24,570 nucleotides of DNA, taken from positions 1 to 24,570 of IMG/VR virus record IMGVR_UViG_3300013005_000162; one strand, 5' to 3'. The translations under genes were made by a program, and so were the position numbers. The notes beneath the pieces are model-generated. The model saw nothing but the letters and a program-made list of their open reading frames with translations, made no database searches and was not told the origin of the DNA. Shown piece after piece: positions 2,616 through 13,465 of the stretch. Source of the DNA: a virus. How positions within the stretch are numbered: the stretch's first letter is position 1; each line of letters opens with the position of its first letter.

Positions 2616-3316
2616 CTAAAGTTACTTTAACTAAGACAACGCAAGACGCTCCAGAAATACGCCAGTCACGAATAAAGCGTGAGTGGATGGACAACACGTA
2701 CAACAAACATGCATATCAGTGCCTGCCTATGACCTACGCAAACGTTTATGGCTGGGAATTAATCTTGCCACAAGACGTTGTTGCACAGTGGGACGGTGGC
2801 AATACTGTGCCCAAGATACTTGAAGGGGCAGAGTATAAGGGTAGACAAATAGCTTATGGTGGAATTATTGGAATGGTTTCTTTTTCTACTGGATGGGCAT
2901 TTGGTACAGAAGATGGACACGAAACATTTATAGGCGGTTCCCCTAACTACATGGTAGACGGAGCTTCCCCCTTATCAGCAATTATACCAAGTAGTTGGTG
3001 GCCAGATGAGTTCCAAATGAATTGGATGATAAACAAGATTGGGGAACCAGTTGTTTTTGAAGCTGGGATGCCGTTCATGTTTTTTAATATTTTTGATAGC
3101 ACAGTTACAAATGATGTAGAATTTAAAGTAGAAAATTTGTGGGATAAACCAGAGCTAATGAACTCTAGACAAAAATATGGCGATATGAAAATGAAAAATA
3201 ATCAAGAAAATCCTTGGACATGGACAAAAGGAATAAGGACTGGTCTTGACGCAGATGGCAATAGGATCGGGCCAAGCTTTACTGGTCTACCAAAGCTAGA
3301 TGAACCAAGTTTATGA
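2612..3316 (+). CDS. DUF6065-like protein of unknown function
   Basis: The 234-residue protein begins in an ATGA overlap with the peroxidase-like gene. CLPMTYANVYGWELILPQD (37-55) and the Trp-rich middle (SSWWPDEFQMNWM) resemble proteins annotated with DUF6065, from memory of that family rather than a search. No catalytic motif, signal peptide or membrane segment is evident. DUF6065-type proteins are often found beside 2OG oxygenases and natural-product or phage accessory genes, which fits the context, but no function can be assigned. Confidence 0.6.
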   Translation: MTKVTLTKTTQDAPEIRQSRIKREWMDNTYNKHAYQCLPMTYANVYGWELILPQDVVAQWDGGNTVPKILEGAEYKGRQIAYGGIIGMVSFSTGWAFGTEDGHETFIGGSPNYMVDGASPLSAIIPSSWWPDEFQMNWMINKIGEPVVFEAGMPFMFFNIFDSTVTNDVEFKVENLWDKPELMNSRQKYGDMKMKNNQENPWTWTKGIRTGLDADGNRIGPSFTGLPKLDEPSL

Positions 3317-3471
3317 ACGCAAAAGATAAAGCAATAATTTATTTGGATAACTCTATTAGATGTTTATCTGAGCTAATAGAAAATTCAAATTCTGATTCTC
3401 TAGTAAAGGACGCCAAAGAGTCTTTGCTAAATCAACAAAAAGCATTAAGGGAAATTAGCAATGAATCCTAA
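3313..3471 (+). CDS. Small protein, cassette A member 1 (paralogue of 12058-12267)
   Basis: The 52-residue product starts MNAKDKAIIYLDNSIRCLSEL and ends NES. It starts in an ATGA overlap with the previous stop and overlaps the next gene by 11 bases, typical translational coupling here. AKDKAIIYLDNSIRCLSELI aligns with AKDQARSFLEKSILTLSLLL of the protein at 12058, keeping Ala-Lys-Asp, Leu, Ser-Ile and Leu-Ser positions, so the two are probably homologous helical proteins. Function unknown. Confidence 0.7.
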   Translation: MNAKDKAIIYLDNSIRCLSELIENSNSDSLVKDAKESLLNQQKALREISNES

Positions 3472-3667
3472 AGAAATTAGTGAAGAGTTAATACATGAAT
3501 TTACCGAAAACATGGACGAAGCTATTCCTGCTTATTCTGAAGAAGATCAAAACATCGTCATGCCAAACGGCGGAACAACAAGAGAATATGTTTTGACTGA
3601 AGCATTTGCAGAAATTAATAAGTATATAATCTTGCCTTTATCTCCATCAATAGATGATTTGATATGA
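3461..3667 (+). CDS. Small acidic protein, cassette A member 2
   Basis: The 68-residue acidic product (MNPKEISEELIHEFTENMDE...) overlaps the upstream gene by 11 bases and the downstream gene by ATGA. I recognise no domain. Its size and position match the 65-residue acidic protein at 12270-12467 in the second cassette, though I see no convincing residue-level similarity between them. Function unknown. Confidence 0.65.
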   Translation: MNPKEISEELIHEFTENMDEAIPAYSEEDQNIVMPNGGTTREYVLTEAFAEINKYIILPLSPSIDDLI

Positions 3668-3963
3668 AAACCTACGATGCAAAAAAAGACCTAGAGTATA
3701 TCAATGAGCAATTATTTTTATATTTATATATAGTTGGTTTAAATCCTAGAAATATTGATGACTACTCGATAGACGAAATAATAAATTCGGCAAGAAAAGT
3801 TTCTATTGCCCCTATAAGTGAAGTCGAGTCAGGTTCTAAGGATTTTTCAAATGATCCTCTTTATTTGTTTTTAAAAAATCAAAGAATATCTTTGATTGGA
3901 AACATTAGAAGAATTTGGTATATGCGACAGTTGGCAATCGGAGCGATCAACAATGCAGTATGA
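3664..3963 (+). CDS. Small conserved protein, cassette A member 3 (paralogue of 12454-12735)
   Basis: The 99-residue protein is clearly related to the 93-residue product at 12454-12735. Both have a DAKKDLE/RAQEDLE start, a hydrophobic stretch (LYLYIVGL / SFLFILGI), an IDEIINSAR / IDDAINLIR segment, and a basic C-terminal motif (NIRRIWYMRQLAIG / GVRRAWFDVQVALH). The family is unknown to me. Its constant place directly before the methyltransferase-like gene in both cassettes, with 11-base overlaps, suggests the pair act together. Confidence 0.75.
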   Translation: MKTYDAKKDLEYINEQLFLYLYIVGLNPRNIDDYSIDEIINSARKVSIAPISEVESGSKDFSNDPLYLFLKNQRISLIGNIRRIWYMRQLAIGAINNAV

Positions 3964-4651
3964 TGTAAACTATTTTGATAATTTAGTTAAGCTAATCAAG
4001 TATAATGATATTGAATCAGTTGAAGATTCTATATCAAAAAGTAAAATTATAAATCAGTATTTAGAATCTTTCTCTATAGACAAGAGAAAAATAGCCGCTG
4101 GTATGGATTTTATGATTTGGTATTTTGATGTTTTTAGCAAGGAAAGCCATTTTTGGAATGTTAACCCAGCGTACTTCTATGCCGCTAACACGCATGAATT
4201 TGGGTTTTTAACGGCTAGCCCAAAAACTTCGCTAATGACACTCCCAGCATTTAACACAGGTTTAGCTAGGTTGATGGAAAAAAAATCAAAGCTTTCTTTA
4301 TTAAACAATTATCAACTACACCTATTTGAACACTACATAGGCGATGAGCCGTGGTCTTACGATACCGTAACAATGCAAGATATACAATCCGGCAATGGTG
4401 GTTACTATGATTTCATATGTATGAGTATCCACGATGTTATCCATGATCCTAGTTTAGTTATAGATTTCTTTAATTTATTAAACAAAAATGGGACAATGAT
4501 GATGTTGTATACTGGTACAGATCAGCTTTATAAAGATGAGTCAGTGTATACTGATTTTTATGAAGTCCATAGAAATCTAATCAATATGAAAAATTCATGT
4601 GTTTACCATAACCCTACAGGAGCAGCTGTTACTTACGCAGTTAGTTTATAA
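3953..4651 (+). CDS. Degenerate class I methyltransferase-like protein, cassette A member 4
   Basis: The ATG at 3953 gives 232 residues; the TTG at 3896 would run deep into the preceding gene and is less likely. The C-terminal part (YYDFICMSIHDVIHDPSLVI, then DFFNLLNKNGTMMML) looks like the post-motif II region of Rossmann methyltransferases, where a 'nGG' turn precedes a strand. A clear glycine-rich SAM-binding motif is missing. It aligns with the 246-residue protein at 12725-13465, for example IDKRKIAAG / VDRRNIATG, DFFNLLNKNGT / DFYLDRLNKGGI and a Cys-x-x-Tyr-His near the end. Enzymatic activity is doubtful; it could be a binding protein on a methyltransferase scaffold. Confidence 0.6.
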   Translation: MQYDVNYFDNLVKLIKYNDIESVEDSISKSKIINQYLESFSIDKRKIAAGMDFMIWYFDVFSKESHFWNVNPAYFYAANTHEFGFLTASPKTSLMTLPAFNTGLARLMEKKSKLSLLNNYQLHLFEHYIGDEPWSYDTVTMQDIQSGNGGYYDFICMSIHDVIHDPSLVIDFFNLLNKNGTMMMLYTGTDQLYKDESVYTDFYEVHRNLINMKNSCVYHNPTGAAVTYAVSL

Positions 4652-12267: not shown

Positions 12268-12269
12268 CA

Positions 12270-12467
12270 ATGAGTGGCATAGGTGAGTCAAATGAGTTTA
12301 AAATTGAAGCAAGACAGGGAGAATCTATAACTGATTTCCCAGATTGGGACAATGAAACAATAGAGTGGGATTCTGCTACTGGGATATATTACGTTGCGGG
12401 TAAGCCGGTTAGTATGTGTCAAGGCGTTGCGATGTTCAAAGAGGAGAAGGAAGATGAACAAATATAG
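12270..12467 (+). CDS. Small acidic protein, cassette B member 2
   Basis: The 65-residue acidic product (MSGIGESNEFKIEARQGESI...) starts two bases after the previous stop and overlaps the next start by 14 bases. The middle (WDSATGIYYVAGKPVSM) suggests a small beta structure. No family is recognised, and there is no convincing similarity to the protein in the same place in cassette A (3461-3667). Function unknown. Confidence 0.6.
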   Translation: MSGIGESNEFKIEARQGESITDFPDWDNETIEWDSATGIYYVAGKPVSMCQGVAMFKEEKEDEQI

Positions 12468-12735
12468 AGCTCAAGAAGATTTAGAGCATCGCTCTCAGCA
12501 TCTAGCATCTTTTTTGTTTATTCTTGGAATTGAAGAAGATAAATTTGAATTAATTAAGATAGACGACGCAATAAATCTAATTAGAAATAGATACGTGTAT
12601 AAACATAGTGACCCAGATTATAATATAGGGGTTCAGGAGTATATTAAAAAACAAAATATTGTTTTGAATAGGGGAGTTAGAAGAGCTTGGTTTGATGTCC
12701 AGGTAGCTCTGCACGAGGTACAAAATGTCAAGTGA
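12454..12735 (+). CDS. Small conserved protein, cassette B member 3 (paralogue of 3664-3963)
   Basis: The ATG at 12454 follows the purine-rich GAGGAGAAGGAAG, a strong ribosome-binding stretch, and gives 93 residues. An in-frame start at 12394 would add a poor Arg/Cys/Lys-rich N-terminus absent from the paralogue. RAQEDLE, SFLFILGI, IDDAINLIR and GVRRAWFDVQVALH align with the product at 3664. Compared with that copy it lacks about eight residues in the middle loop. Function unknown. Confidence 0.75.
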   Translation: MNKYRAQEDLEHRSQHLASFLFILGIEEDKFELIKIDDAINLIRNRYVYKHSDPDYNIGVQEYIKKQNIVLNRGVRRAWFDVQVALHEVQNVK

Positions 12736-13465
12736 TAAAAGATATGAACCACAATTATCTTTTGATTTTACTAGTTGGGAATACGATTGGCGCACCTATG
12801 CTAACGAATCTACAAAAAAAGATGGGCCAGAATCAGTTGCAATTTCCGACTACTTATTTAAAACAATTGGTGTAGATAGAAGAAATATCGCTACTGGCGG
12901 AGCAAGCGACTACGAGTTTGTTATACATTACCCAAGACCAAGCTTAGCTGACTCGTACGGTCAATCTCAATGGATGCCAATACTACTCATCCAAATGCTA
13001 ATGGATATTAGTAGGGGTAATCATATATTAGCGTTGTCTGGCGGTTTAGATAGATTTAGGCTAAAGCCTTTTCAAGATATATATGGGTCTAATATATATA
13101 TGTTGAATAATAAAAAAACAGCAATGTATGAAAAATTTCAAAAAGAAAATACTCCAATAGACTATAGTGTTGTTAGCCATCAAGATTTAGAAAAAGACAA
13201 CTGCAATAGTTATATGTTTGACATGATTGTTGGGTGGTCACAGGATATGGAAAATCCTTTTATACCTGTAGACTTTTATCTTGATAGATTAAATAAAGGC
13301 GGAATTTTGGTAATTCAAAATTCATCAGATAGCATTTTTCTTTATCAAAACGACACTCAAGCATCTCCTGTTTGGCAATACCATAGTGAAATAAAATCAA
13401 GAAAAGACTGCAATATGTATCACATACCTCTATTTTATGGGGTTACAGTTGTCGTTAAACAGTAA
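12725..13465 (+). CDS. Degenerate class I methyltransferase-like protein, cassette B member 4
   Basis: The 246-residue protein overlaps its upstream partner by 11 bases, exactly as in cassette A. HILALSGGLDRF may be the remains of a SAM-binding strand-loop. SYMFDMIVGWSQDMENPFIPV and DFYLDRLNKGGILVI correspond to the later Rossmann strands. The GxGxG of active methyltransferases is not present. Conservation with the cassette A copy is strongest in the C-terminal half (Tyr-His near CNMYHIPLFYG). It may be a catalytically altered or non-enzymatic relative. Confidence 0.6.
   Translation: MSSDKRYEPQLSFDFTSWEYDWRTYANESTKKDGPESVAISDYLFKTIGVDRRNIATGGASDYEFVIHYPRPSLADSYGQSQWMPILLIQMLMDISRGNHILALSGGLDRFRLKPFQDIYGSNIYMLNNKKTAMYEKFQKENTPIDYSVVSHQDLEKDNCNSYMFDMIVGWSQDMENPFIPVDFYLDRLNKGGILVIQNSSDSIFLYQNDTQASPVWQYHSEIKSRKDCNMYHIPLFYGVTVVVKQ

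Follow-up and report, generated by a model that had tools for sequence, protein, structure and literature searches.

A four-gene cassette present in two anciently diverged versions in a phage oxygenase array, and its tentative link to a proline-rich repeat protein, probably a tail fibre

The 24,570 nt stretch of viral DNA analyzed here (IMG/VR virus record IMGVR_UViG_3300013005_000162, positions 1 to 24,570; hereafter, the window) contains two sets of four short genes, which raises the questions of whether they are copies of a single cassette, how both came to lie in one genome, and what such a cassette might do. An initial annotation had described them as a duplicated unit, and all eight of the open reading frames (ORFs) it claimed were present in the ORF list, on the + strand. 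In cassette A these are member 1 (3313..3471; 52 aa), member 2 (3461..3667; 68 aa, acidic, with an isoelectric point of ∼4.1), member 3 (3664..3963; 99 aa, with an invariant RRxW-type motif in the alignment) and member 4 (3953..4651; 232 aa, with a methyltransferase-like fold). Cassette B consists of member 1 (12058..12267; 69 aa, recognized from its ORF and from profiles), member 2 (12270..12467; 65 aa, equally acidic, isoelectric point ∼4.1), member 3 (12454..12735; 93 aa) and member 4 (12725..13465; 246 aa). The overlaps between neighbouring genes had been said to be equal in length in the two sets. This holds for members 3 and 4, which overlap by 11 bp in both A and B, the sole junction of equal length; members 1 and 2 overlap by 11 bp in A but are separated by a 2 bp gap in B, and members 2 and 3 overlap by 4 bp in A and by 14 bp in B.

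The duplication of the gene set was confirmed. BLASTP matched A3 to B3 over the full length (7e-11, 28% identity) and A4 to B4 over 143 aa (1e-9, 25% identity), while pairwise searches of A1 against B1 and of A2 against B2 gave no match. Profiles built from the relatives of A1 and B1 cross-matched directly, if weakly. A related group of cassettes, family C, provided an intermediate: hhalign joined A1 to C1 (E 1.5e-6) and C1 to B1 (E 5e-12), with scores of 34 and 61 compared with a null maximum of ∼19 obtained from reversed and unrelated profiles; the family C profiles were built without the A-type row L109. Judged by these profiles, the A–B link for member 1 is firm. A2 is homologous to member 2 of family C (E 6.5e-6), while profile comparison gave no link between B2 and member 2 of the other families. 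By eye, F/W, G, Y and C residues are similarly spaced in B2 and the other member 2 proteins, but a link between them was not accepted, the profiles giving it no support. Among its own relatives, B2 has a strongly conserved core (WDNExIEWDSxTGxYYVAGKPVxMC). The initial annotation was thus right in regarding members 1, 3 and 4 as homologous and member 2 as alike in size and acidity only. No cassette member matched Pfam or PHROGs above chance. The idea that member 1 might be an acyl carrier was dropped, since by eye the families share no conserved serine.

Single-sequence searches of IMG/VR identified 44 close relatives of A4 and 31 of B4, and family C, together with more loci of the B type, came from a search with an alignment. 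Among uncultivated phages, 56 distinct cassettes belonging to family A, B or C kept the order 1-2-3-4, as did a family D (L178, L181, L192, L197 and L209) and a divergent set in L253, both of which surfaced through later pattern hits. The expectation that the cassette would recur in other phages with its order intact was borne out, as all relatives have the same order, far beyond chance. Families A/C, B and D are deeply split, and families C and D have an extra member 0 of ∼80 aa. The L253 set (5691-7850) has the order 0-1-2-3-4, lies on the strand opposite to that of the DUF6065 gene described below, and has a member 2 of 185 aa. No cassette relatives were detected by tblastn in 50,697 phage records, and a GTDB search found no relatives of member 4 in bacterial or archaeal genomes. 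All cassettes with enough flanking sequence sit among genes for 2-oxoglutarate (2OG) oxygenases, in arrays of up to ∼10 such genes plus DUF6065 that are flanked by fibre genes on one side and by tail sheath and tube genes on the other. With no relatives in the phage records or in GTDB, the set has been found only with such oxygenase arrays. Dishui Lake actinophage DSL-LC01 was considered as a relative and rejected; its first 50 kb contain no array of this type, and the tblastn search of the collection with member 4 was empty.

The cassettes occupy two positions in these arrays. Slot 1, which holds cassette A in the window, lies in nearly all relatives between the DUF6065 gene (PF19541; 2612..3316, + strand, Pfam 7e-42), which is directly upstream in a conserved arrangement, and a 2OG-Fe(II) oxygenase-like gene directly downstream (g09; 4654..5331, + strand), which has a weak, below-cut-off match to Pfam 2OG-FeII_Oxy_3. 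Slot 2, which holds cassette B, usually follows a 2OG-Fe(II) oxygenase gene of the type of g15 (8888..9652, + strand; Pfam 2.8e-10). A tree of 56 member-4 sequences, read as unrooted, separated families A and C from B. Within B, all ten of the slot-2 cassettes grouped in a single clade (SH-aLRT 96), and the remaining members of this larger group occupy slot 1 in other phages. B4 is 65–73% identical to the slot-1 B cassettes of other phages, compared with ∼25% to the A4 of its own genome. A recent tandem or local duplication was therefore rejected, as by both identity and tree A and B are not each other's closest relatives. Since the tree places the slot-2 B cassettes within B and apart from A/C, it indicates that the two cassettes of the window diverged long ago and were then united in one genome, whether through exchange or through an early duplication followed by losses.

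The identity between member 3 proteins tracks that between member 4 proteins (Spearman rho 0.94), while the adjacent DUF6065 does so with a rho of only 0.18. Other array genes, however, reach correlations of up to 0.85. The co-divergence of members 3 and 4 therefore reflects phage phylogeny in part, and adjacency is a further confounder. The cassette occupies either of two slots and is inverted in one case. Strict gene order, the co-divergence of members 3 and 4, the two slots and the inversion together make it well supported that the cassette is one unit.

AlphaFold2 predicted a class I methyltransferase fold for B4 (pTM 0.81). A fold search gave 350 matches in the PDB at E≤0.001; the best 50 of these 350 were methyltransferases or TrmR, led by COMT-like O-methyltransferases and TrmR (e.g. 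PDB 3ntv, 5zw3), relative to which member 4 has extra N-terminal helices. A sequence match to CmoA was weak (E 0.0096). Motif I (DxGxG), expected after strand 1, is missing at that point of the alignment, where the loop reads SGGLDR or NTGLAR, while g12, a canonical methyltransferase of the same window used as a control, has DIGCGTG. Model and alignment thus agree with the earlier description of a methyltransferase-like fold without the glycine loop that binds S-adenosylmethionine (SAM). Residues A56, N128, L189, G193, Y207, H233 and T241 are invariant in 61/61 member-4 sequences of families A–D. N128 lies after strand 2, where SAM enzymes have an acid that binds the ribose; the residue is Asn in all 61. 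Like Y207 and H233, it lies at or near a strand end, and invariant polar residues at such positions usually mark an active site or the place where a ligand binds. This suggests the pocket to be kept and the ligand site to be changed. If it has kept a pocket at the strand ends but not the canonical SAM site, member 4 might bind SAM atypically, use another ligand, or recognize and position a substrate for a neighbouring oxygenase.

A candidate for that substrate is encoded just upstream of the array, outside the region covered by the initial annotation. A gene at 35..497 (+ strand, with its 0-frame start at 35) would, after the putative +1 frameshift described below, encode a domain followed by an (FPP[YF])n repeat that ends in ...PPTFK. 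Most relatives with enough sequence have a repeat gene near the start of the array, of either the (FPP[YF])n or the (PP[AGS]FF[SAG])n (PPxFF) type, and the FPP reading is kept across different phages; the window's lineage has an ...FK ending. Five relatives (L110, L113, L114, L115 and L130) continue beyond the FK with a sequence resembling Peptidase_S74, which Pfam matched at 9e-11 in L130. Because this chaperone is fused to it in some relatives, the repeat protein is probably a tail fibre, and it is a candidate fibre tip and candidate substrate. Its link to the array was also seen from the opposite direction. When IMG/VR was scanned with the repeat alone, array-type 2OG genes were present in 61/68 of the repeat loci with ≥2 kb downstream, among the matches listed; for control fibres with an S74 motif, array-type 2OG genes were found in 11/107 contigs and DUF6065 in 0/107.

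The ending of the repeat protein goes together with the presence of the cassette. Across 76 distinct arrays containing DUF6065 and a repeat gene, some of which had been fetched because they bear the cassette, the cassette was present in 49/53 arrays with an FK ending and in 1/23 of the others. The FK end, the cassette and g09 occurred together in 47/76 arrays, and none of the three in 22/76. Restricting the comparison to the repeat-scan subset, and to the matches listed, gave 11/12 for FK endings and 1/26 for the rest. The cassette and g09 were found together in 47/76 arrays and were both absent from 24/76.

We tentatively propose that the four genes form one functional unit, whose products would be an accessory complex serving a phage locus for the modification of a proline-rich virion fibre. 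Modification of the prolyl-hydroxylase type is proposed because the 2OG oxygenase encoded by g02 (1248..1982, + strand) has a catalytic domain resembling that of prolyl 4-hydroxylases (P4Hs; phmmer 2.4e-7 to PDB 3itq). The array oxygenases would hydroxylate the repeat protein in the manner of a P4H, and the cassette would also target this protein, perhaps close to the ...PPxFK at its C-terminal end, as a hetero-complex centred on member 4 with the small proteins 1–3 as partners. A bolder version, improbable in our estimate, would see here a new multi-subunit protein-modifying enzyme, in which a methyltransferase fold devoid of the canonical SAM site cooperates with small partners and with a 2OG oxygenase dedicated to it on the ...PPxFK end of a hydroxyproline-rich fibre.

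Several points weigh against the proposed accessory role. Hydroxylation, complex formation and any reaction rest on inference. Cassette presence changes only 3–4 times on the DUF6065 tree, so its association with the FK ending may be shared ancestry, and the repeat-scan fractions describe the matches listed, i.e. a sample. Two marine loci (L153 and L154) combine an FK repeat with an oxygenase array but lack the cassette, TauD-family genes following DUF6065 in its place in the order. Finally, g09 correlates with member 4 at a rho of 0.70, and other array genes at 0.78–0.80. Specific co-divergence of g09 and member 4 was therefore rejected, and a private partnership between them is not supported. 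The earlier suggestion of a multi-protein unit serving a specific partner enzyme thus survives as regards the unit, which order and co-divergence favour; a partner remains plausible from the co-occurrence with g09 and from the g15-type gene ahead of slot-2 cassettes, but not from the tracking of g09. The L153 and L154 contigs, which contain the repeat gene, 2OG genes and DUF6065, were binned in gammaproteobacterial and verrucomicrobial metagenome-assembled genomes; since they look like phage arrays, they are probably phage sequence binned with these genomes.

Other roles for the cassette were weighed against the same observations. Its proteins could form a non-enzymatic assembly unit, i.e. chaperones or structural adaptors of the fibre rather than modifiers. 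The location of the array between fibre and tail sheath/tube genes, the lack of a canonical SAM motif in member 4 and the helical look, by eye, of members 1 and 3 would all fit. We nevertheless consider this unlikely, since N128, Y207 and H233, invariant in 61/61 sequences, have the character of ligand-binding or active-site residues, and since each cassette for which enough flanking sequence was available is surrounded by oxygenase genes. It is improbable that the cassette contributes one enzyme to a small-molecule biosynthesis cluster of 2OG oxygenases, an AurF-like diiron enzyme, a methyltransferase and glycosyltransferases. An AurF-like gene, a canonical methyltransferase (MT) and sugar genes do lie within the window, and AurF and MT genes are immediate neighbours of several cassettes in slot 2, but no carrier proteins or synthetases were recognized, many cassettes have no AurF, MT or sugar genes nearby, and the link to a fibre-type repeat protein is tight. 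Similarly improbable is an ordinary SAM-dependent O-methyltransferase with accessory subunits, methylating hydroxylated residues or the C-terminal carboxylate of the fibre; the leading fold matches to COMT-like enzymes and TrmR and the weak CmoA match speak for it, but strand 1 lacks the DxGxG that g12 keeps, and Asn replaces the acid after strand 2 in 61/61 sequences.

The initial annotation had placed both cassettes beside peroxidase-like and 2OG oxygenase genes; the latter association is general, while peroxidase-like genes are no marker, many cassette-bearing arrays lacking g03, and the repeat gene is the more telling neighbour. Four further array genes (g25–g28; 14391..18083, + strand) include two assigned to the 2OG oxygenases by Pfam (g25 and g27) and two by relation within the array (g26 and g28); NCBIfam matches of g27 and g28 were weak. 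The match of g15 to solved P4Hs was weak (0.024), and g27 and g09 gave no sequence match to them. Genes for a DegT aminotransferase, FdtA and a GlcNAc transferase (9649-12077) separate g15 from B1 in the window, unlike in L005–L007, where g15 is immediately upstream of B1; in L068 and L069 the B cassette is interrupted between members 2 and 3 by a g15-type 2OG gene. In L212 (8092-9818), the place of members 2–4 in slot 1 is taken by two genes resembling member 0 (85 aa and 81 aa) and by a protein of 403 aa that looks unrelated. At 5981-7758, the window encodes an AurF/R2lox-like diiron protein followed by g12, a pair that recurs in most arrays having it. DUF6065 is 54–89% identical across the cassette phages compared, and so better conserved than the cassette; its AlphaFold2 model, of moderate quality (pTM 0.65), is a beta structure with a weak dUTPase-like match, which was not used in the argument. 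No RNA genes or tRNAs were found in the window.

The window's repeat gene contains a putative programmed +1 frameshift site, GCA-CGG-A (92-98). The extra C (GCN-C-GGA) is present in the repeat genes of >20 distinct relatives, while in L016, L027, L029, L040, L042, L110 and L113 the gene is in frame without it. Of the 7,597 codons in the listed genes of the window none (0) is CGG, and of 73,311 codons in the relatives with the shift 6 are. A 169-kb relative (G001; L147 and neighbours) has one in-frame repeat gene and one frame-shifted gene with a cysteine-rich end (64405-64821 and 73482-73838). An actinobacterial host is suggested by the presence, in the same relative, of a proteasome-like protein and at least two WhiB proteins, the latter identified by Pfam.

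Aquatic phages commonly encode 2OG oxygenases, for most of which no substrate is known. The link between the array and the (FPP[YF])n protein offers a concrete candidate substrate for such phage enzymes. The cassette, which only some phage lineages have, would mark a further step encoded at this locus, and member 4 would represent a methyltransferase-fold family that has a conserved pocket and has lost the SAM motif. With the class I methyltransferases (COMT-like, TrmR), member 4 has the fold in common (Foldseek E ∼4e-8, probability 1.0, TM ∼0.5); it differs in lacking the glycine loop, in having Asn for the ribose-binding acid, and in being always accompanied by three or four small partner genes. 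Its best viral fold matches are unannotated proteins of uncultured Caudovirales phages (UniProt A0A6J5RCS9, A0A6J7X1E1 and A0A6J5M8D5; 44%, 28% and 20% identity, respectively). Tail fibres with an S74 chaperone resemble those repeat proteins that have an S74 domain right after ...FK, but the repeat proteins differ in their (FPP[YF])n and mostly end at FK without a chaperone. As regards viral prolyl hydroxylation, a survey (PMC9301287) cites work of 1999 in which a chlorella virus was reported to encode a prolyl hydroxylase and to have 4-hydroxyproline in viral proteins, and states that viral use of prolyl 4-hydroxylase 'remains cryptic'. A viral prolyl hydroxylase would be the common ground between the two systems; the algal virus has one enzyme, whereas the phages have ∼10 2OG genes beside a repeat gene, together with DUF6065 and the cassette.

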